Assembly (NCBI RefSeq): GCF_018390735.1
Contig: NZ_JAHBCL010000002.1
Location: 124,001-188,000, forward strand
Length of the DNA: 64,000 nt
Direction of reading: 5' to 3'
Source: Fusibacter paucivorans
GTDB lineage: Bacteria; Bacillota; Clostridia; Peptostreptococcales; Acidaminobacteraceae
Shown piece by piece: positions 21,252 to 32,445 of the stretch. The notes under the pieces were generated by a model that saw nothing but the letters and a program-made list of their open reading frames with translations, did not search any database and was not told the DNA's origin. Both the position numbers and the translations under genes were made by a program. The first letter of the stretch is position 1. The number at the start of each line of letters is the position of its first letter.

Positions 21252-21436
21252 GGCGAAGCTTAAAAAATCGATTTAGAAAAGGCAGAGATGTAAAACCGCT
21301 GCAAATCAATTAATTTAATAATGTAAGATGCCATTAAATGGGCCGTATAAACGAAATGTTTTTCAAGTTTGTTGTTTATAGGGTCTATTTTAATACTTTT
21401 AAACAGTTGTATTGGATTGCAGCAGAGATCACAATT

Positions 21437-21496
21437 TTGGACTACGCCAAAAAGCGTTATTTGGTACTTTTGGAATAGTCCAAGAAGTGCTATAAT
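21437..21496 (+). promoter_or_regulatory. Promoter and MocR-type operator of the peptide-salvage cluster
   Basis: A TATAAT at 21491-21496 with TTTGGA (21469-21474) 16 bp before it. Around it are a direct-repeat element TTGGACTA (21437-21444), TTGGTACT (21461-21468) and an inverted repeat TTGGA-ATAG-TCCAA (21470-21483). Mixed direct and inverted half-sites over the -35 region are the usual layout of MocR/PdxR sites. Confidence 0.55.
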
Positions 21497-21534: not shown

Positions 21535-23022
21535 ATGGAGATTAAAATTATTAAAGATCACAAGACACCTCTTTACATGCAAATACGCAATGCCATCGTG
21601 GATATGATTATACGTGGCGAGCTTTCCGACGGCAATAAATTGCCAACGGAACGCGCACTGGCAAAGCGTTTGGCAGTACACCGAAATACAGTCATCAAAG
21701 CTTACAGTCTATTGGTTGATGAAAAATATATTCGTGTTTCACAAAAACCGAAAGGTTATTTTGTGACCTACGGCCAAGGTGAAGCGAATCGTCAAAATCA
21801 TTTTTTGGCACGACACTTTACGCCATTTGAATACATTGTTTCAGATGAGTTCTTACAGACAAATGCACTTTTTAGCCGATTGTTTCATACATCAATTGAC
21901 CGTAAGATCATTTCATTTGCCACGGCGATGCCGTCTCCAGCGTGCTATCCAAAGGATGACTTCAATGCTATTCTGACAAATCTCGTTGCAGAGAAAACAG
22001 ATCAAATTTACGGCTACGCCAGTCCTCAGGGAGTAATGCCCCTTAGGAAACAACTTTCAGAAATGCTTGAATCCAATCACATATACGCGAATGCATCCGA
22101 AATAACCGTTTGTGCAGAGACATACCAGGCGCTGGATTATCTTGTAAAATTAACGGTGTCGCCGGGTGAAACCATTATTGTTGAAGAACCAATTAATCCG
22201 GATATTTACGATCTCATCAAACTTCTTGGGATCAATATTGTGACGATTCCAACCGATGAAGACGGCATGATCGTCGCTTATTTGGAAAATCTCATCTTGA
22301 AATTTAAACCAAAATTTATTTTAACCATCCCAACATTTCATAATCCGACGATGACCGTTATGTCGCTGAACCGACGCGAGAATCTTCTTGAGCTTTCTTA
22401 CCGCTATAATATACCCATTATTGAAATAAATCATGACTCTGGTCTTCGCTATGAAGGCATTGCAATACCTTCACTAAAGGCGATGGATACACTTGGCAAT
22501 GTCATTTACATCGATTCTTTTATCTTCCGTGTTATCCCGGGGGTGAAAATCGCCTATATTGTTTTGTCAAAGGGAATTGCGCAAAAGTTAGCGCGTATCT
22601 TGGAAAAAAATCAAATCTTTCTGAGCTCTTTAGACCAGTATGCGATGGCGGCATACTTAGAATCCGGTGTGTATGAAGCACACCTTGCGGAGATTACGGA
22701 TACTTACCGTGAAAAACGCGATTTTATGGTGGCCATGCTGCGGCAATACTGTTCAGATTACTTAACGTATGCCATTCCGGCGGGGGGCGCCAGTCTTTGG
22801 TGCCGATTTAAAGTGCCAATTGATCAAACCAAACTGCTGATCCATGCTGAGACGGCTGGTGTTTCCTTTGCGCCGGGACATGTATTTTACCCGTATGGCA
22901 ATGCCGATGCCGATTATATTCGTTTGAGCTATAGTGCCATGGAAAAACGGGATATTAAAGAGGGGGTAAAATTGATGCAAATAGCGATTGAAAAAGCCCT
23001 GTCGAATGAAAAGAAAACCTAG
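21535..23022 (+). CDS. MocR-type GntR/aminotransferase-like regulator lacking the PLP lysine
   Basis: A 495-residue protein with an N-terminal GntR winged helix (DGNKLPTERALAKRLAVHRNT, about residues 35-55) and a fold-type I aminotransferase-like C-terminal domain. The core motifs are eroded. The normal SFSK motif reads SFIF (residues 328-331), replacing the Schiff-base lysine with Phe331. The EDDY motif reads EINH (297-300), losing the Asp that pairs with the pyridine nitrogen and the Tyr. HNPTG reads HNPTM. PLP should therefore not bind in the usual way. It heads a cluster for peptide uptake and hydrolysis and probably senses a peptide-derived ligand. Confidence 0.85.
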   Translation: MEIKIIKDHKTPLYMQIRNAIVDMIIRGELSDGNKLPTERALAKRLAVHRNTVIKAYSLLVDEKYIRVSQKPKGYFVTYGQGEANRQNHFLARHFTPFEYIVSDEFLQTNALFSRLFHTSIDRKIISFATAMPSPACYPKDDFNAILTNLVAEKTDQIYGYASPQGVMPLRKQLSEMLESNHIYANASEITVCAETYQALDYLVKLTVSPGETIIVEEPINPDIYDLIKLLGINIVTIPTDEDGMIVAYLENLILKFKPKFILTIPTFHNPTMTVMSLNRRENLLELSYRYNIPIIEINHDSGLRYEGIAIPSLKAMDTLGNVIYIDSFIFRVIPGVKIAYIVLSKGIAQKLARILEKNQIFLSSLDQYAMAAYLESGVYEAHLAEITDTYREKRDFMVAMLRQYCSDYLTYAIPAGGASLWCRFKVPIDQTKLLIHAETAGVSFAPGHVFYPYGNADADYIRLSYSAMEKRDIKEGVKLMQIAIEKALSNEKKT

Positions 23023-23032
23023 GAGGATGCCT

Positions 23033-24013
23033 ATGCCTATGATAAATCTGATTACCAAACCGATTATAAAACCAAAAAGGCTTAAACCTGGCGATACCAT
23101 TGCCATCGTATCACCATCAAGCGGTATTTGGGAACGACGGGAGCTTTCACAGAGCATTGAGGCGCTGGAGTCAATGGGGTATCATGTCAAACTTGGCGAT
23201 CATGCACTGAAACGTCATTACTACTTGGCCGGATCAGATGAACAAAGGGCAGAGGATCTCATGTGGGCATTTTCTGATGACACTGTTGATGCCATTTTTG
23301 CAAGTCAAGGCGGCTACGGTGCCGCAAGGCTGTTAAAGCATCTTGACTTTGATAGGATACACCAGAACCCAATGATCTTTATGGGGTACAGTGATATTAC
23401 ATCGCTTCACTTAGCCATTGCAAAAGAAACCGGACTTGTGACATTTCATGGTCCAAGTGCCCTTAGCTTTGGATCTGAAGCAATGACGCCCTATCGTATG
23501 ACGGGTATTCAAAAGGCGATTATGCTGTCAACACCTATTGGTGTGATAAAAAGAGGCTCATTGCCAAAGGCGATTGTCAAGCTCAATGGCGGGACTGCTG
23601 AAGGGGCGCTTATCGGCGGCAATTTGTCGCTGGTATGTGCGACGCTTGGGACGCCTTGGGAAATTGATACGCGCGGCAAAGTCCTGTTCCTTGAAGATAT
23701 AGAAGTCGAACCGTGGCAAATGGATCATTTGCTGACCCATATGATGAACGCCGGAAAATTTGAGAATGCAGCGGCAATTGTCATTGGCGAATGCAAGGCG
23801 TGTGAACCTTTTGAGCATCGGCCCGGTTTTCCAAACCAATGCAGTTTGGAAAATTTAATTTATGAGTTTTTTGAAGGACTTGAAAAACCTGTCCTGTATG
23901 GCTTTCCAATTGGACATACCAAGGATTTAGCAACACTTCCCATGGGTGTCAGGGCGAGGGTCAACGCAGATGACGGCGTTTTTGAAGTAATAGAAGCAGG
24001 TGTCTGCGATTAA
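23033..24013 (+). CDS. LD-carboxypeptidase (S66 family, LdcA/MccF-like)
   Basis: Cytoplasmic serine carboxypeptidase of 326 residues that trims the terminal D-amino acid from murein peptides (LdcA) or cleaves acyl-adenylate adducts (MccF). Catalytic Ser is in MGYSDITSLH, Glu in FLEDIEVEPW and His in FPIGHTKDLATLP, so the S66 triad is complete. Several close ATGs exist; the one at 23033 has the best spacing from AGGAGG. It is 10 nt after the MocR-like gene and leads into an oligopeptide importer, consistent with recycling of imported muropeptides. Confidence 0.9.
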   Translation: MPMINLITKPIIKPKRLKPGDTIAIVSPSSGIWERRELSQSIEALESMGYHVKLGDHALKRHYYLAGSDEQRAEDLMWAFSDDTVDAIFASQGGYGAARLLKHLDFDRIHQNPMIFMGYSDITSLHLAIAKETGLVTFHGPSALSFGSEAMTPYRMTGIQKAIMLSTPIGVIKRGSLPKAIVKLNGGTAEGALIGGNLSLVCATLGTPWEIDTRGKVLFLEDIEVEPWQMDHLLTHMMNAGKFENAAAIVIGECKACEPFEHRPGFPNQCSLENLIYEFFEGLEKPVLYGFPIGHTKDLATLPMGVRARVNADDGVFEVIEAGVCD

Positions 24014-24055: not shown

Positions 24056-25879
24056 ATGAAAAAGAAAATCAGTATCATGTTGGTCACAATACTGGTGCTC
24101 ATGAGTGCAATGCCACTGATGAGTTTTGGTGCAGCACAAGATGAGACCATTTTAAAAATCGGCGTCAAACAAGAGCCCGATTCACTCAACCCATTTGTTT
24201 CATGGGAAATGGCATCTTTTGAAATCTTTATGCTGACGTATGATTCACTGGTCAAATTTGACCGCAATTACGAAGTGGTGCCGTCACTGGCAACGTCGTG
24301 GGAACTTTCAGACGATCAACTCACTTGGACATTCCATTTGAGGGATGACGTCAAGTGGCATGATGGTGAGCCCTTTACATCGGCTGATGTAAAGTATACC
24401 TATGAAGCATTTCAAGAAAGCGAAATGGGCATGTATTATACATCACTCGGTGGTATTACGGCGATTGAAACACCGGATGATTACACAGTTGTTATCTCAA
24501 CTGATTCGCCTAAGGCCAATATGCTGCAGAATGTGACACCGATTTTACCGGCACATATCTGGCAGGATCAGCCGCTTGACAGTATTGCCGATTTTGAGGA
24601 TACGGCAATGGTCGGTACGGGGCCGTTTAAATTTGTCAGCTGGGATATGAACCAGCAGGTCGTTCTTGATAGAAACCCAGACTATTTTGGTCAGCCTGCT
24701 AATGTTGACCACTTAATTTATGTCATTTACGCCAATAACGACACCATGGTTCAAGCCATTCAAAACGGCGAAATTGATGTGGCGCTTGAACTGGACTATG
24801 TTGATATAAAAAGTGCATTGAGCAATGAAAATATTACGGATTATGCTTATGAAGAGAATGGCTTTACGGAATTGGCGTTTAACCAGTCTGAATGGTCAGG
24901 CAACTTCAATCAATTAATACAAAATAAAATGATCAGACAAGCCATCAGTTATGCTATAGACAAACAGAAAATTGTTGATCTGGTATATGACGGTTCTTCG
25001 ACGATCGGCTCTACTTATATTCCACCATCACAAGGTGAATGGCATTATGCGGTGGAAGGCGATAAGTTAAGAGGCTACGATCCTGAAAAAGCGATTTCGC
25101 TCTTAGAAAGTGAAGGTTTTACAAGTGTTGATGCCGATGGTTACCGAAGCAACGATTCAGGTGATAAGCTGTCATTCTTGCTGTTGTCCAGAAGTGACAA
25201 TACTTCAGAAGTCAAAGTTGGACAGATGGTTCAAAGTTATTTAAAAGCAGTGGGGATTGAACTCAATATTGAAACCGTTGATGACGGCGTACTCTATGAT
25301 CGAACCATGGGCGAAAAAGACTATGATATGTTTATATGGGGATGGGGCGGCGACATTGACCCAACCGTTCTTTTAAATGTCTTGACAACAGACAATATTG
25401 ATAATCTAAACGATATTTTTTATTCTAATCCAGAATACGATGCCATTGTGGAAGCGCAGACGCATGAAATGGATCGCGCAAAACGTGTTGAAATGGTTCA
25501 TGAAGCACAGGCACTTCTTTACGAAGAATTGCCATATGATATTTTGTATTACGCTGAAAACCATCAGTTAGTGCGCAACGACCTTATTACGGGGCTTACA
25601 CCAACTGTTTCGGGCGCAGTATTTTTCGCCAATACCATTGTCAACTATGCGGATGCTACTTTTATAACAGAAGCTGCTGAAAGCAGTATGAACAGCAGTG
25701 CGCCTGCCGAAAATACAGCTGACAGTACGCCGGCAGAAAGTGAAAGTGAAAGTGATGGCGGCGGCAGCAGCGGACTCGTCATTGCCATTGTGGTGATTGT
25801 CGTCATCGGCGGCGGATTCTTTATATGGCAACGAAACAAATCGAAGAAAGCGAATGAAAACCAGAAAAATGAATGGTGA
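24056..25879 (+). CDS. Oligopeptide ABC transporter substrate-binding protein with C-terminal membrane anchor
   Basis: A 607-residue family 5 (DppA/OppA) binding protein. A signal peptide (about residues 1-25, ending near SFGA) has no lipobox Cys. The body has family motifs such as LNPFVSWEM near the start, ATSWELSDDQLTWTFHLRDD and AISYAIDKQKIV. Instead of lipid anchoring it has a Ser/Glu/Gly-rich linker (about 545-575) and a C-terminal membrane helix (GLVIAIVVIVVIGGGFFIW) with a basic tail. AGGAGG precedes the ATG. First transporter gene of the cluster. Confidence 0.92.
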   Translation: MKKKISIMLVTILVLMSAMPLMSFGAAQDETILKIGVKQEPDSLNPFVSWEMASFEIFMLTYDSLVKFDRNYEVVPSLATSWELSDDQLTWTFHLRDDVKWHDGEPFTSADVKYTYEAFQESEMGMYYTSLGGITAIETPDDYTVVISTDSPKANMLQNVTPILPAHIWQDQPLDSIADFEDTAMVGTGPFKFVSWDMNQQVVLDRNPDYFGQPANVDHLIYVIYANNDTMVQAIQNGEIDVALELDYVDIKSALSNENITDYAYEENGFTELAFNQSEWSGNFNQLIQNKMIRQAISYAIDKQKIVDLVYDGSSTIGSTYIPPSQGEWHYAVEGDKLRGYDPEKAISLLESEGFTSVDADGYRSNDSGDKLSFLLLSRSDNTSEVKVGQMVQSYLKAVGIELNIETVDDGVLYDRTMGEKDYDMFIWGWGGDIDPTVLLNVLTTDNIDNLNDIFYSNPEYDAIVEAQTHEMDRAKRVEMVHEAQALLYEELPYDILYYAENHQLVRNDLITGLTPTVSGAVFFANTIVNYADATFITEAAESSMNSSAPAENTADSTPAESESESDGGGSSGLVIAIVVIVVIGGGFFIWQRNKSKKANENQKNEW

Positions 25880-25888
25880 TGGTAAAAA

Positions 25889-26857
25889 ATGAATCGAAAG
25901 TATATTGTCAAAAAACTCTTTTATGCATGTATTACGTTGATGGGCGTTCTGCTCATCAACTTCTTTCTATTTCGCATCATGCCGGGTGATCCCGTCAGCA
26001 TGCTCGTTCGAAACCCCAACGCCAATATTGAGACGGTTGAGAAAATGAAAGCAGCTTATGGTCTTGATAAATCGTTGGCTGCACAGTTTGTAACGTATGT
26101 CAGCAGTATGTTCATCGGCGATTTTGGCACCTCGTTTCATTACAATATGCCGGTGATGAAGGTCATTGGTGACCGCGTGTTTGCCACCATTCTCCTTGTT
26201 GGGACAGCAGAGATCATCGCCATCATCTTTGGTACTTTTCTCGGAATCGTTGCAGCGCACAAAAGGGGAACAAAACTGGACGTCGGTGCACTAAGCTTTT
26301 CACTTGTCACTTATGCGATGCCGTCATTCTGGCTCGGCATTCTTATGATTGCCTTTTTCAGCGGTTTTTTGGGTATTTTACCGACTTCCGGCATGACATC
26401 GCCTTCTCTCTATTTTGCTGTGGGCATGCAGCGGGCGTCTGATATAGCGGTGCACTTAGTGCTGCCCGTATTGACGCTTGCACTGGTATTGCTGGGAGAG
26501 TATATGCTGGTGATGCGCAGTTCGCTGATTGAGGTACTGACGGAAGACTATATTCTAACAGCGCGCGCAAAAGGATTCGATGATAAAACCATTCTAAAGA
26601 AACACGCGCTGCCCAATGCCATGATACCAATGGCGACACTTGTGGCAATGAGTCTTGGCTTTGTGATTGCAGGCGCGCTGCAGGTAGAGACTGTCTTTTC
26701 ATGGCCGGGACTGGGGCGTTTGATGTATGACGCGCTCCAAAACAGAGATTATCCGCTGCTGCAGGGGATCTTCTTTATCACGAGCATGTGCACCATTGGC
26801 ACGAATCTTATCTCAGATCTGTTATACGGCTACCTTGATCCAAGGGTAAAAGAGTAA
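25889..26857 (+). CDS. Peptide ABC transporter permease, DppB/OppB type
   Basis: A 322-residue inner permease with six membrane helices, N-terminal KKLFYACITLMGVLLINFFLF and the family FRIMPGDPV motif. The EAA loop lies at about residues 215-240 (LTARAKGFDDKTILKKHALPNA), which contacts the ATPases. It begins 9 nt after the binding protein gene. A 136-nt gap with a short direct repeat separates it from the next permease. Confidence 0.93.
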   Translation: MNRKYIVKKLFYACITLMGVLLINFFLFRIMPGDPVSMLVRNPNANIETVEKMKAAYGLDKSLAAQFVTYVSSMFIGDFGTSFHYNMPVMKVIGDRVFATILLVGTAEIIAIIFGTFLGIVAAHKRGTKLDVGALSFSLVTYAMPSFWLGILMIAFFSGFLGILPTSGMTSPSLYFAVGMQRASDIAVHLVLPVLTLALVLLGEYMLVMRSSLIEVLTEDYILTARAKGFDDKTILKKHALPNAMIPMATLVAMSLGFVIAGALQVETVFSWPGLGRLMYDALQNRDYPLLQGIFFITSMCTIGTNLISDLLYGYLDPRVKE

Positions 26858-26993: not shown

Positions 26994-27842
26994 ATGAAAG
27001 AAAATCAGTTTATCAAACAGTTTCTGAAGAATAAAATGGGCGTCGTCGGGTTTAGTATGCTCGTCATCTTCATACTCATTGCACTCTTTGGCCCAATGAT
27101 CGTCCAATACGATCCTCAGGTCTTCGGCGAGAGAGCAGATGTTTTGAATCCGCCAAGTGCGGCACACTGGCTTGGAACCGATGATCTGGGGCGAGATGTC
27201 TTTAAAGCGCTGATTGCCGGCAGCCGCGTCTCCTTAATCGTCGGTGTTGCGGCGACGTTTATCTCGATGTTTATTGGCACCAGCGTCGGTATTTTCTCCG
27301 GCTATCTGGGCGGAAAGACGGACAACGTGCTCATGCGCATTACCGATGTGTTTCTGGTTTTACCGTGGCTGCCGCTAATGCTCGTGCTTGCGGCACTGCT
27401 TGGCTCAAATATCTGGAATATTATTTTTGTCATTGGCATCACGGGGTGGGCGGGTACCGCCAGAATTGTCAGAGCGCAGACACTCACTGAAAAAGAGCGT
27501 CAGTACATTGAACGGTCAAAATCGTTTGGGGCATCGAATCTCTTTATCATTTGGCATCATATATTCCCAAATGTATTCCCGTTGGTATTTGCCAATACGA
27601 TTTTGGTGACAGCTACCTCTATTTTGTCTGAAACGACGCTGAGTTTCCTAGGCATGGGGGATGTATCGAAGCCGAGCTGGGGAACGACACTGCATTTTGC
27701 CTTTGAATCAGGTGCACTGAGCAATAAGGCTTATTGGTACTTTATGCCGCCCGGGGTTTGCGTGCTGCTGTTGGTGCTGGCATTTACACTTATGGGGTTT
27801 GCACTGGATGAAATCGTTAATCCTAAATTGAGACAACGTTAA
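26994..27842 (+). CDS. Peptide ABC transporter permease, DppC/OppC type
   Basis: A 282-residue permease with the DppC hallmark HWLGTDDLGRDVF at about residues 57-69 following the first helix, and an EAA loop near IERSKSFGASNLFIIWHHIFPN (about 170-190, quoted in part). Six helices. AAAGGATT precedes the ATG. It pairs with the DppB-type protein to form the channel of the importer. Confidence 0.93.
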   Translation: MKENQFIKQFLKNKMGVVGFSMLVIFILIALFGPMIVQYDPQVFGERADVLNPPSAAHWLGTDDLGRDVFKALIAGSRVSLIVGVAATFISMFIGTSVGIFSGYLGGKTDNVLMRITDVFLVLPWLPLMLVLAALLGSNIWNIIFVIGITGWAGTARIVRAQTLTEKERQYIERSKSFGASNLFIIWHHIFPNVFPLVFANTILVTATSILSETTLSFLGMGDVSKPSWGTTLHFAFESGALSNKAYWYFMPPGVCVLLLVLAFTLMGFALDEIVNPKLRQR

Positions 27843-27856
27843 ACGGGGAGGCACAA

Positions 27857-28816
27857 TTGGCATTATTAGAGGTTGATTCACTAAAAATAGCATTTGAACT
27901 CACCGGCGGCAAACGCTTAAAAGCGGTTAACGGGATCAGTTTTTCCCTAGATGAAGGCGAAACACTGGCACTCGTAGGCGAATCCGGTTCGGGTAAAACG
28001 ACGGCAGCGCTGTCGCTAATGCGGCTGTTGCCTAAGAATGCCGTCATTGATGGCGGTGAGATTCGATATAAGCAGAGAGATGTCCTGACGGCACCGGAAG
28101 GCATGATCCAAAAGTTAAGATGGAAAGAGATCGCCATGATTTTTCAAGGGGCGATGAATGCATTAAATCCCGTTTTGACCATTGAAAAACAAATGGTTGA
28201 GGCGATTTTACTCCATGAAACGGTATCAAATGAGGCCGCCTACGCGCGTGCTGAAATGCTGATGCGGCGCGTGGAGATTGACCCAAAACGGTTGAAACAG
28301 TATCCGCACCAGTTCAGCGGTGGCATGCGTCAGCGGGTTATGATCGCAATGGCGCTTGCATGTGAACCGAAAATTGTTATTGGTGATGAGCCGACGACAG
28401 CATTAGACGTCATGGTACAGGCACAAATCTTTGAATTGCTGGAGTCATTGAAAAAGGAAATGGGCTTGTCCATGATTCTCATTACACATGATTTATCCAT
28501 TCTTGGGGACATCTGTGATAAAGTAGCGGTTATGTATGCAGGTGAAATTGTGGAAAGCGGCAGTGTAGAAGCGATTTATGAAGATGCTCGTCATCCCTAT
28601 ACGCAAAAACTGCTGGCGGCATATCCGATTATTGGGAAAAAGAGAGGGTTGCCGGATTTTATTCCCGGTCAACCACTGGATATGACGAAACCTGTACAAG
28701 GATGTGCTTTTTACAGCCGATGTCACAAGGCAATGCCGATCTGCCTATCGCGGCCGCCGCTGCGAACGGTTGAGGGTGCACATCAATTTCTTTGTCATTT
28801 AGAGGGGGAAGCATAA
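27857..28816 (+). CDS. Peptide ABC transporter ATPase, DppD/OppD type
   Basis: A 319-residue ATPase with Walker A GESGSGKTT, Q-loop in IFQGAMNALNPV, signature FSGGMRQRV, Walker B IVIGDEPTTALD and the C-terminal oligopeptide domain with the four-Cys iron-sulfur motif region (GCAFYSRCHKAMPIC and LCHLEGEA). The start is TTG at 27857 after GGGGAGG. It overlaps the next gene by one base. Confidence 0.93.
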   Translation: MALLEVDSLKIAFELTGGKRLKAVNGISFSLDEGETLALVGESGSGKTTAALSLMRLLPKNAVIDGGEIRYKQRDVLTAPEGMIQKLRWKEIAMIFQGAMNALNPVLTIEKQMVEAILLHETVSNEAAYARAEMLMRRVEIDPKRLKQYPHQFSGGMRQRVMIAMALACEPKIVIGDEPTTALDVMVQAQIFELLESLKKEMGLSMILITHDLSILGDICDKVAVMYAGEIVESGSVEAIYEDARHPYTQKLLAAYPIIGKKRGLPDFIPGQPLDMTKPVQGCAFYSRCHKAMPICLSRPPLRTVEGAHQFLCHLEGEA

Positions 28817-29829
28817 TGGACGCATTAATTGAACTTAAAAATGTCACCGTGAAGTTTCCTGTAAAGCCCAGTTTTATAGATGTGCTAAAAGGCAAGCCGC
28901 AACGGGTTGTCCACGCGGTAAATGGCGTTGATTTAACCGTGATGCCCGGTGAAATCATAGCGCTTGTCGGTGAAAGCGGTTCTGGCAAGACGACGTTGGG
29001 CAAGGCAATCAATGCACTTCATCCAAGTGAGGTTGTGGGCGGTACGATTTGCTTTGAAGGGGAGCCGATATTTGGTACGGATGGAAAATTAAAACCGGGT
29101 TACCGTGAAAAAGTCGCCATGATTTTTCAAGATCCCTATCAGTCGCTTAACCCTAAGCAAACCATTGAAAAAATTGTCGCAGAGCCCCTTATGATTCAAC
29201 AGAAGAATCTCTCGCGGGATAAAATGCGGGCAAGTGTTGTGACAGCATTGGAGCAGGCTGGTTTAACACCGGGAGAATCGTTTTTAAATCGGTATCCCCA
29301 CGAACTCTCCGGCGGGCAGCGCCAGCGTGTTGTCATAGCAGGTGCGCTTATTGTTAAACCAAAATTGATTATTGCCGATGAACCTGTTTCAATGCTGGAC
29401 GTATCCATCCGCTCTGAGATTTTAAAATTACTGATGGAATTGAGAGAACGCCAACAGATTGCCTATCTCTTTATTACACATGATATTGCTTTGGCTTGGG
29501 CCATTGCAGATAAGATTGCCGTGATGTACCTAGGGACGATTTTAGAGTATGGCAGTGCTGAAAATGTTATTCAATCACCCAAAAATCCCTATACGCAAGC
29601 ACTGATTGAGATCATGCCAAAGATGAAGATGCGACGTTCGGAAAAGCGCGCACTGTTGACTGGTGAAATGCCTGATCCAATTGATTTGCCTAAAGGCTGT
29701 GTTTTCCAAAGCAGATGTCCACGTGCAGCAGATGGGTGCATGCATGAAAAACCTAAGCTGACCCTTGTGGGTGAAGCGCATTACAGTGTGTGCGAATGTC
29801 AATTAGAGGAGATGCGTGTGAATGAATAA
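28816..29829 (+). CDS. Peptide ABC transporter ATPase, DppF/OppF type
   Basis: A 337-residue ATPase with Walker A GESGSGKTT, signature LSGGQRQRV, Walker B LIIADEPVSMLD and a C-terminal oligopeptide-ABC domain with GCVFQSRCPRAADGC. I use the ATG at 28816 (overlapping the previous stop, TAATG) because GAGGGGG precedes it. It overlaps the following peptidase gene by 8 nt, so importer and peptidase are translationally coupled. Confidence 0.93.
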   Translation: MDALIELKNVTVKFPVKPSFIDVLKGKPQRVVHAVNGVDLTVMPGEIIALVGESGSGKTTLGKAINALHPSEVVGGTICFEGEPIFGTDGKLKPGYREKVAMIFQDPYQSLNPKQTIEKIVAEPLMIQQKNLSRDKMRASVVTALEQAGLTPGESFLNRYPHELSGGQRQRVVIAGALIVKPKLIIADEPVSMLDVSIRSEILKLLMELRERQQIAYLFITHDIALAWAIADKIAVMYLGTILEYGSAENVIQSPKNPYTQALIEIMPKMKMRRSEKRALLTGEMPDPIDLPKGCVFQSRCPRAADGCMHEKPKLTLVGEAHYSVCECQLEEMRVNE

Positions 29830-31030
29830 TCATCACTGGATTTGGGATGTAGTAACGTCGGACGAAGTTGTTGAGGCGACGGCAAATGCAGTCAAAACGG
29901 CAAGTTATTCGGGATTAGAGAATCAGGAAGCGCAGATGGCAGCCTATATTGGCCGTATTCTGGCTTCAGAGGGGATTGAACATACAATTGAGTGCGTCGA
30001 GAAGGGGCGCTATAACGTCATTGCAAGACTGAAAGGCGGGCGAAAAGGCAAAAGACTGATACTGAACGGCCATATGGATACGGTGCCGCTTTATGGTATG
30101 TATGATGGTTTAATGCCACGCATTGAAGACGGCAAGCTGTATGGACGCGGTGCCGTTGACATGAAAGGCCCTTTGATGGCGATGCTCTACGCGATCATTG
30201 CCATCAAGCGCAAAGCGATTGCCTTTGACGGTGAAATTATACTGGTGTGTGTTGCCGATGAAGAAGAGCGCAGTCTTGGCAGTATTCATTATTTGGAAAA
30301 TCATACAGATGGCGCTGATGGCGTCGTCGTGGGCGAACCGACAAATTTAATCATATGTCCTGCTCATCGCGGGCTGCAATGGATTGAAATTATGGTTGAA
30401 GGCAAAACCGTGCACGGCGGTAATCAGGCATCAGGGCTCAATGCCATTGACGTAGCAGGTGAATTGATCTGCTATTTAAAAGTCGAGATGGCAAAAGTTA
30501 TCGAAGCATCCAGCCATCCGCTGATTGGCAAGGGCTCTTTTAATATTGGAACGATCAATGGCGGCACACAGCCGAGTACAGTTGCAGGAAAATGTATGCT
30601 CACTTTTGATCGAAGATGGGTGCCGGGCGAAACGCTCGAGACCATACTCAGTCAAGTGTCAGCGATGCTCGAATGTTTTCTGAAATTGCATCCGGGGTAT
30701 AAAATATCGTATCGGTCAATGGCAGAAAACGTTATGAAGGGCGACTACAGTCATGAGAGCATGAACACACCATTAAATGCGGCAATTGTACAGGCTGCGG
30801 TGAAATCAGTCGAATCGATTGGCCGCCAAAGTGAAATCAGCTTTTTTCCCGCGTGGAGTGATGGCGCACTTTTTCAGCATTTTTTTAATATGCCGACGAT
30901 TGTTTTCGGACCCGGCAATTTAGCGACGGCACACTCGGACGAAGAATACATTGAAATTGAAGAACTCGTTGCAGGAACAGAAGCATATGCGGGATTAATA
31001 CGATCTTTTTTTGAAGAGACGGTGGTGTGA
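29822..31030 (+). CDS. M20 family peptidase (ArgE/DapE/carboxypeptidase type)
   Basis: A 402-residue zinc peptidase with metal-site motifs NGHMDTVPL (His and Asp), GRGAVDMKGP and VADEEERSLG (catalytic Glu). The lid domain begins after EPTNLIICPAHRG. It starts inside the last codons of the importer ATPase gene. Likely role: hydrolysis of imported peptides or N-acylated amino acids in the cytoplasm. The precise specificity of M20A members cannot be read from sequence. Confidence 0.88.
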   Translation: MNNHHWIWDVVTSDEVVEATANAVKTASYSGLENQEAQMAAYIGRILASEGIEHTIECVEKGRYNVIARLKGGRKGKRLILNGHMDTVPLYGMYDGLMPRIEDGKLYGRGAVDMKGPLMAMLYAIIAIKRKAIAFDGEIILVCVADEEERSLGSIHYLENHTDGADGVVVGEPTNLIICPAHRGLQWIEIMVEGKTVHGGNQASGLNAIDVAGELICYLKVEMAKVIEASSHPLIGKGSFNIGTINGGTQPSTVAGKCMLTFDRRWVPGETLETILSQVSAMLECFLKLHPGYKISYRSMAENVMKGDYSHESMNTPLNAAIVQAAVKSVESIGRQSEISFFPAWSDGALFQHFFNMPTIVFGPGNLATAHSDEEYIEIEELVAGTEAYAGLIRSFFEETVV

Positions 31031-32445
31031 TGCATAAGCAGAAACAGAAACGTGATTCGAAGCGTGCTTTTAAAGCGTTGGATCGCCTTAAATTTAATAA
31101 AGATCTTTCACAGTTAATTGCCATTCAAAGTGTTTCTGAAAATCCGACAGGCGTTAAGCAAGCACTGCATACAATGCTTACCTTGGGCAAAGCAATGGGG
31201 TTTGAGACACATGCGCTGCTTGAAGATCGCGTCGGGGTTATCGAAATCGGAAAAGGCCTTGAAACCGTAGGGATTCTCGTGCATGTTGACGTCGTCCCGG
31301 CCGGCAATGATGCACATTGGCATTATCCGCCGTTTGAACTGACAGAAGCACATGACAGCTACTATGGACGAGGTGTGGCAGATGACAAAGGGCCTGCTTT
31401 GGCAGCGCTTTATGCGATGGCACAGCTTCTGCCCTATAAAAACGAAATGAAAAAACGCGTTCAGATGATTGTCGGGACACAGGAAGAAACCACTTGGCAT
31501 GATATGGCTGCTTATTGCGAAACACAAGTGCTGCCGGATTACGGTTTTACGCCAGACGGTGAATTTCCCATTACCAATATGGAAAAAGGTTATGTTGACG
31601 TCGAATTAAAATTCCCTCGGCATTTTCAAGGCAGGACAATTGATTTGATGGGCGGTGATTCCAAGAACACCATTCCAGATTTTGCACAAATTGAATTGAG
31701 TCATTTTTCTAAGGAGATGCTCAGTGTCTTGCGGGACACGGAGACAATGACTGAAAACGATAATGGTACGACAACCGTGCGCGCTATGGGAAAATCAGTT
31801 CATTCCTCAAGCCCTCAAGATGGTGAAAATGCCATTGTCAAACTTTGCCACACACTTTTTGGCAAACTGTCATTGCTGCCGGAAATTGCAGCACTCGTCA
31901 TTTTTGTTGAAAGAGAATTGAAAGACGATCTCTTTGGGACTTCTTTGGGACTGAATAGGGGACAGCAGATTTATGAAGGCCAAGATGCGCATGTCACCGT
32001 GATATCGCCAACCATGCTGCGAACAACTGAAGATTCCTTTATTTTAAATATCAATATGCGCCAAACGATTGGACTGACTCAATCGCAAATTGCTGCAGCT
32101 TTTCATGAAAAGGCGGCATGTTATGGATTCACATTTGAGATCGTCGACTACAAACCTTTTTTGTATGTTTCACCGAAACGGCCATTTCTACAGTGTATGG
32201 CTGAGGCATATGAAAAGGAAACCGGAAGGGAAAATGCGTTTGTTTTGGCACATGGGACTTCATATGCAAAGGCAATGCCGAATTTTGTAGCGTGGGGTCC
32301 TTATTTTCCTGAGGATGAAGACACCTGTCATGAAAATGATGAAAGTATTCGGATAGAAACGCTTCATGCTGCTTACCGCGTTTATGCAGAGGCGCTGTTT
32401 CAAATGGCGTTTGATGAGCGGCTTTTAATAGGCGGGAATGATTGA
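31030..32445 (+). CDS. M20 dipeptidase, PepV/Sapep-like
   Basis: A 471-residue dinuclear zinc dipeptidase. Motifs are VHVDVVPAGND, YGRGVADDKGPALAALYA and IVGTQEETTWHD, with the larger insert of PepV-type enzymes (471 residues against about 400 for ArgE types) and a terminal GTSYAKAMPNFVAWGP. ATG at 31030 overlaps the TGA of the previous gene (TGATG). It completes the peptide-salvage cluster and releases free amino acids from dipeptides. A bidirectional terminator follows after a repeat block. Confidence 0.9.
   Translation: MHKQKQKRDSKRAFKALDRLKFNKDLSQLIAIQSVSENPTGVKQALHTMLTLGKAMGFETHALLEDRVGVIEIGKGLETVGILVHVDVVPAGNDAHWHYPPFELTEAHDSYYGRGVADDKGPALAALYAMAQLLPYKNEMKKRVQMIVGTQEETTWHDMAAYCETQVLPDYGFTPDGEFPITNMEKGYVDVELKFPRHFQGRTIDLMGGDSKNTIPDFAQIELSHFSKEMLSVLRDTETMTENDNGTTTVRAMGKSVHSSSPQDGENAIVKLCHTLFGKLSLLPEIAALVIFVERELKDDLFGTSLGLNRGQQIYEGQDAHVTVISPTMLRTTEDSFILNINMRQTIGLTQSQIAAAFHEKAACYGFTFEIVDYKPFLYVSPKRPFLQCMAEAYEKETGRENAFVLAHGTSYAKAMPNFVAWGPYFPEDEDTCHENDESIRIETLHAAYRVYAEALFQMAFDERLLIGGND

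Follow-up and report, generated by a model that had tools for sequence, protein, structure and literature searches.

To our knowledge, dependence on PLP is taken as part of the definition of a MocR protein. The regulators characterised so far work with PLP, either alone or coupled to an amine (PMC8739950, PMC6677901), every MocR cluster is described as conserving the PLP-binding Lys (GabR Lys312) and the pyridine-N Asp (GabR Asp279) (PMC6677901), and mixed direct and inverted repeats are usual in MocR operators (PMC5320631). The window analysed here, 64,000 nucleotides of Fusibacter paucivorans DNA, encodes on its plus strand a regulator of 495 aa (21535..23022, ATG start), the frame of which is intact, with no internal stops. 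Pfam assigns residues 13-71 to a GntR winged helix-turn-helix (PF00392, 49.8 bits against a cut-off of 27) and residues 152-478 to the fold-type-I aminotransferase domain Aminotran_1_2 (PF00155, 53.8 bits). The top NCBIfam model is PdxR (NF052282), although at 312.6 bits the regulator falls slightly below the curated cut-off of 320 and so outside that equivalog. The N-terminal helix-turn-helix, the C-terminal aminotransferase domain and a predicted operator with direct and inverted repeats are all features of MocR membership, and the regulator is a MocR by architecture and descent. The PLP-binding Lys and the pyridine-N Asp are absent from it, and the label 'PLP-dependent MocR regulator' would therefore be wrong. 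In an AlphaFold model (mean pLDDT 79.8, built on a shallow nine-sequence alignment) the overall aminotransferase fold is unchanged, with matches to kynurenine aminotransferase II homologues and LysN (Z 47), GabR (Z 41) and PdxR 7pq9 (Z 40).

Changes in the former PLP site were read from an alignment with Lys-bearing MocRs, and GabR numbering was taken from an alignment with GabR. The Schiff-base Lys, GabR Lys312, is Phe331 (FSK to FIF), the EDDY motif is EINH, with GabR Asp279 and Tyr281 corresponding to Ile298 and His300, and HNPTG is HNPTM; these three changes had been named in the original prediction and are real. Its count of three lost cofactor contacts holds for the Lys and EDDY sites but not for HNPTG, where the Asn (AspAT Asn194) is retained and the altered Gly makes no cofactor contact itself. 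Losses beyond that list are the phosphate-cup Gly (GabR Gly180), which is Glu195, the phosphate-binding Arg (GabR Arg319), which is Lys338, and the AspAT Tyr225 position, which is Asp301. With the Lys, the phosphate cup, the phosphate Arg and the pyridine Asp all altered, the proposal of a PLP site dismantled by more than one mutation is borne out. Arg463, aligned to the aminotransferase carboxylate Arg (AspAT Arg386), is retained. From the altered contact residues we infer that PLP is not bound, and the cup Glu would be hard to square with binding of a phosphate dianion. A Schiff-base Lys shifted to position 332 was considered and rejected, as two relatives have Lys332 and the window protein has Arg332. 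The regulator in another genome of the same genus (L097, 99% identity) has the same residues, and those of two other genera (L098, 59%; L099, 57%) have the same residues at the Lys, cup and EINH positions; Phe331, EINH-DS and HNP(T/S)M are common to all three.

The loss of the Lys extends well past these relatives. With 80 neighbourhoods fetched, we compared 78 Lys-less rows, representing 76 distinct genes since two rows repeat a gene, with 51 Lys-bearing rows, and the diagnostic motif columns were taken out before tree building. All 78 Lys-less rows fall on one branch in a quick tree (SH-aLRT 99), and a mixture-model tree of 64 rows recovers the clade with a bootstrap of 100 and an SH-aLRT of 100; Lys loss within a single clade is thus demonstrated for at least 76 sampled genes. 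As the branch nests within several Lys-bearing lineages, the loss is derived, most simply in a single event. Strong profile matches occur in 89 of 394 genomes of the order, some of them being Lys-bearing MocRs, and in a further family of the same order 112 of 350 genomes match the Lys-less profile strongly, with up to four copies each. Outside the window's order, the best matches read from samples of the class and the phylum (about 790 genomes) included no Lys-less member, and all of them retain the Lys and the cup Gly.

Column statistics show what has taken the place of the cofactor contacts. The Lys is absent in 78/78 clade rows, its position being occupied by Leu, Phe, Gly, Ala or Met. At position 195 every Lys-bearing row (51/51) has Gly, and the Lys-less rows have Glu (73/78) or Asp (3/78). 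Two proteins of the arginine clade described below (L134:9024-10532 and L135:9170-10669) have the cup Gly and still no Lys. Position 338 is Arg in all 51 Lys-bearing rows and in a minority of the Lys-less rows, and in the window subtype Lys338 is conserved. No Lys-less row keeps the AspAT Tyr225 position, and the pyridine-N Asp position, Ile298 in the window type, is filled by Glu or Asp in most of the other clade members. Averaged for seven columns that formerly contacted PLP, net charge is +0.33 in Lys-bearing proteins, -1.0 in the window type and -3.4 in the arginine deiminase clade.

The regulator heads a run of plus-strand genes for peptide uptake and hydrolysis. It is followed by an S66 peptidase of the LD-carboxypeptidase family (23033..24013, PF02016 and PF17676; likely start ATG 23033 after AGGAGG), an oligopeptide-type solute-binding protein of family 5 (24056..25879, PF00496 at 330 bits; Opp4A at 210 bits, below its cut-off), OppB-type (25889..26857, PF00528 and PF19300) and OppC-type (26994..27842, PF00528 and PF12911) permeases, OppD-type (27857..28816) and OppF-type (28792..29829) ATPases, each with PF00005 and PF08352, an M20 peptidase of the ArgE/DapE deacylase family (29822..31030, PF01546 and PF07687; TIGR01910 at 223.7 bits, cut-off 217.6) and an M20 dipeptidase of PepV/Sapep type (31027..32445, PF01546; TIGR01887 at 332.7 bits, cut-off 207.95). 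These domain and family matches confirm the neighbours first named from the bare sequence: LD-carboxypeptidase, oligopeptide importer and two peptidases. The signal peptide of the solute-binding protein lacks a lipobox Cys, and at the C-terminal end a hydrophobic stretch precedes basic residues; the protein may therefore be anchored at its C-terminus and not be a lipoprotein. A 136-bp gap separates the OppB and OppC genes and could conceal a second promoter. The order regulator-S66-SBP-OppB-OppC-OppD-OppF-M20-M20 is unbroken in all four genomes, from three genera, that carry the window subtype, and in this respect the suggested peptide-salvage context stands, but the clade as a whole reaches wider than peptide salvage.

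Upstream of the regulator lies a candidate operator of three boxes: box 1 (21436..21444, plus strand, TTTGGACTA, an exact match), box 2 (21460..21467, plus strand, TTTGGTAC), a direct repeat of box 1 with a start-to-start distance of 24 bp, and box 3 (21476..21483, minus strand, TAGTCCAA), an inverted copy of box 1. A TATAAT on the plus strand, the probable -10 element (21491..21496), follows box 3 by 7 bp, and this overlap of the predicted operator with the regulator's promoter suggests autorepression. From box 1 to the ATG, genomes G000 and G001 are identical, and the DNA immediately upstream has diverged. The TTGGAC...TTGGTAC direct repeat also lies upstream of the L097, L098 and L099 regulators. 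The gapped pattern TTTGGTACYT-N(2-7)-AATAGTCCAA occurs once per genome in G000, G001 and G007, only upstream of the regulator, and is absent from G017, where the direct repeat is kept and box 3 is not. A pattern of the box 3 type, TGG(T/C)AC-N8/9-T(A/G)GTCCAA, precedes the L099, L109, L110 and L112 regulators, and related patterns precede those of an amidohydrolase subclade. Across 1.38 Mb of fetched DNA there are seven inverted-type matches, six of them before regulators of the Lys-less clade, and four direct-type matches, all before such regulators.

Elsewhere in the clade the neighbours differ. Most clade members stand immediately before arginine deiminase operons: in the larger subclade the regulator is closely followed by the genes for ornithine carbamoyltransferase, arginine deiminase and carbamate kinase (arcB-arcA-arcC). 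Counting four genes downstream, at least one arc gene is present for 46 of the 54 arginine-clade regulators, and all three are present for 34. Of the eight regulators with no arc gene nearby, four reach a contig end. At L104:9183-14273 and some 45 similar loci the Lys-less gene is directly upstream of arcB-arcA-arcC. Two smaller subclades adjoin, respectively, a prolidase-like amidohydrolase with an MFS transporter, and MFS and M20 amidohydrolase genes. At L156:4665-10508 (G240:C40) two tandem Lys-less regulators each have their own M20 and MFS genes, which suggests duplication of the whole cassette. Judged by gene content, the clade neighbourhoods have in common the uptake and degradation of amino acids and peptides, and the arginine, M20, prolidase-like and MFS neighbours therefore have as their common factor amino acids or peptides with a free carboxylate, and not muropeptides in particular. 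Separately, at L002 and L004 (G000:C66:137366-140133), L157, L164, L165 and L176, Lys-bearing MocR genes are next to a gene for a free-standing aminotransferase that has the same fold, a possible conserved pairing of regulator and enzyme.

We propose a model in which the window regulator is a PLP-independent MocR descendant, the former PLP pocket of which binds an amino-acid or peptide ligand non-covalently, and which controls itself and, most likely, its operon; we hold this to be probable. The helix-turn-helix would bind the three-box operator overlapping its own promoter, giving self-control, and, from adjacency and the predicted operator, would most likely also control the S66-Opp-M20-M20 operon. 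The aminotransferase-like domain would no longer carry PLP. In its place, the pocket once used for cofactor and substrate would take in a small ligand derived from amino acids and bearing a free carboxylate, most likely a di- or oligopeptide that has been imported, or a hydrolysis product; Arg463 would hold the ligand, Glu195 would probably touch it, and its binding would alter DNA affinity. Retention of the carboxylate Arg, the Glu in the cup and the gene neighbourhood together point to an amino acid or peptide that carries a carboxylate and is bound non-covalently, and both the ligand class and the direction of regulation are what we infer here. In the window type Lys338 could neutralise Glu195, leaving a pocket with no obvious ammonium site. 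In the sister subclade before arcB-arcA-arcC the same pocket is strongly acidic and the likely ligand is arginine; such a pocket would fit a cationic ligand, and the more neutral one of the window branch would fit peptides. As the Lys is absent, the PLP-amine chemistry of MocR regulators is closed to the Lys-less clade. A broader form of this model, in which a whole MocR lineage dropped PLP in one ancestral event and its pocket became a direct amino-acid or peptide receptor, with Glu replacing the phosphate cup, the main branch sensing arginine and the window branch peptides, we judge somewhat better than an even bet.

Other readings fit parts of these observations. The domain might be a ligand-free dimerisation scaffold, acting in a constitutive autorepressor or in one that responds through a partner protein; many pocket residues have altered together, the Lys position varies among Leu, Phe, Gly, Ala and Met as if drifting, and several of the replacements in the window type are hydrophobic (Phe331, Ile298, Met273). 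However, Arg463, Pro271, Glu297, Gly418, Trp422 and Gly448 are invariant over the 78 Lys-less rows, the Glu195 column ranks 44 of 489 in conservation, and residues vary systematically with the adjacent metabolic genes, which would be needless for a mere scaffold, and we regard this reading as unlikely. Slightly less likely still is the original suggestion that the inducer is a murein-derived peptide and that the operon recycles cell wall, a possible reading that we do not favour. The sole muropeptide hint is that the first gene after the regulator encodes an S66 peptidase, of the family of LdcA, and the dpp-ykf operon of Bacillus subtilis also pairs an S66 peptidase with a dipeptide ABC importer. 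Yet this S66 peptidase scores 165 bits against the PRK11253 model for muramoyltetrapeptide carboxypeptidase (LdcA), the cut-off of which is 378, an epimerase and a gamma-D-glutamyl peptidase are absent, the PepV/Sapep-type dipeptidase points to ordinary dipeptides, and relatives of the regulator serve arginine genes and other hydrolases.

Continued sensing of vitamin B6, whether as PLP, PMP or a PLP adduct, held non-covalently or by a different Lys, Lys338 for instance, would be in keeping with the unchanged fold, with PdxR as the best NCBIfam model and with the conservation of Lys338 in the window subtype. It is made improbable by a Glu in the phosphate cup, by Ile in place of the pyridine-N Asp, by loss of the phosphate Arg in most of the clade and by the neighbourhoods, as no vitamin B6 gene was recognised beside the clade members examined; furthermore, EnuR Lys302His, in which the Lys alone is altered, is already without the colour of bound PLP (PMC8739950). 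Finally, the loss of several canonical residues might be put down to sequencing error or a decaying pseudogene, but a Lys at position 331 is missing from close homologues too, the same residues recur in three further genomes and the loss is clade-wide, the predicted operator is conserved and the frame intact, and a dN/dS of 0.094 (G000 against G001), similar to that of the remaining operon genes, places the regulator gene under purifying selection. The homologues refute this reading and we give it virtually no weight.

We found no description of Lys-less MocRs, or of a MocR with arginine deiminase, in the literature searched; Bramucci 2011, Milano 2015 and the Tramonti 2018 review lay outside that search and an earlier mention is possible, but the branch is apparently undescribed. 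A monophyletic group of at least 76 sampled genes without the Lys would show that an aminotransferase fold can be converted to a cofactor-free receptor, and its sister groups, which adjoin genes for arginine, peptides and other hydrolases, offer a natural series in which to learn how ligand specificity comes to be re-set. For the arginine branch, a single purified protein and a single amino acid would be enough to put the ligand question to a direct test.

Set against known systems, PdxR of Bacillus clausii (PDB 7pq9) shares with the window regulator a GntR helix-turn-helix joined to a fold-type-I domain, and operators of mixed direct and inverted repeats (PMC5320631), but it responds to PLP, whereas the window regulator has its cofactor contacts altered and no adjacent B6 gene. 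GabR of Bacillus subtilis (PDB 4n0b, 5t4j) is alike in domain layout and fold, and its working concept, autoregulation with an amino-acid-like effector, is the one that we apply here; however, GabR uses Lys312-bound PLP and an external aldimine with GABA, chemistry that is unavailable without the Lys. The EnuR Lys302His protein resembles the clade as a MocR without the PLP lysine, although it is a laboratory mutant with a single engineered change, and the clade represents a natural, clade-wide loss accompanied by the cup Glu. LysN and the KAT-II-like aminotransferases (2zyj, 1x0m), the nearest solved folds, have the conserved carboxylate Arg as the regulator does but, unlike it, are active PLP enzymes without a DNA-binding domain.
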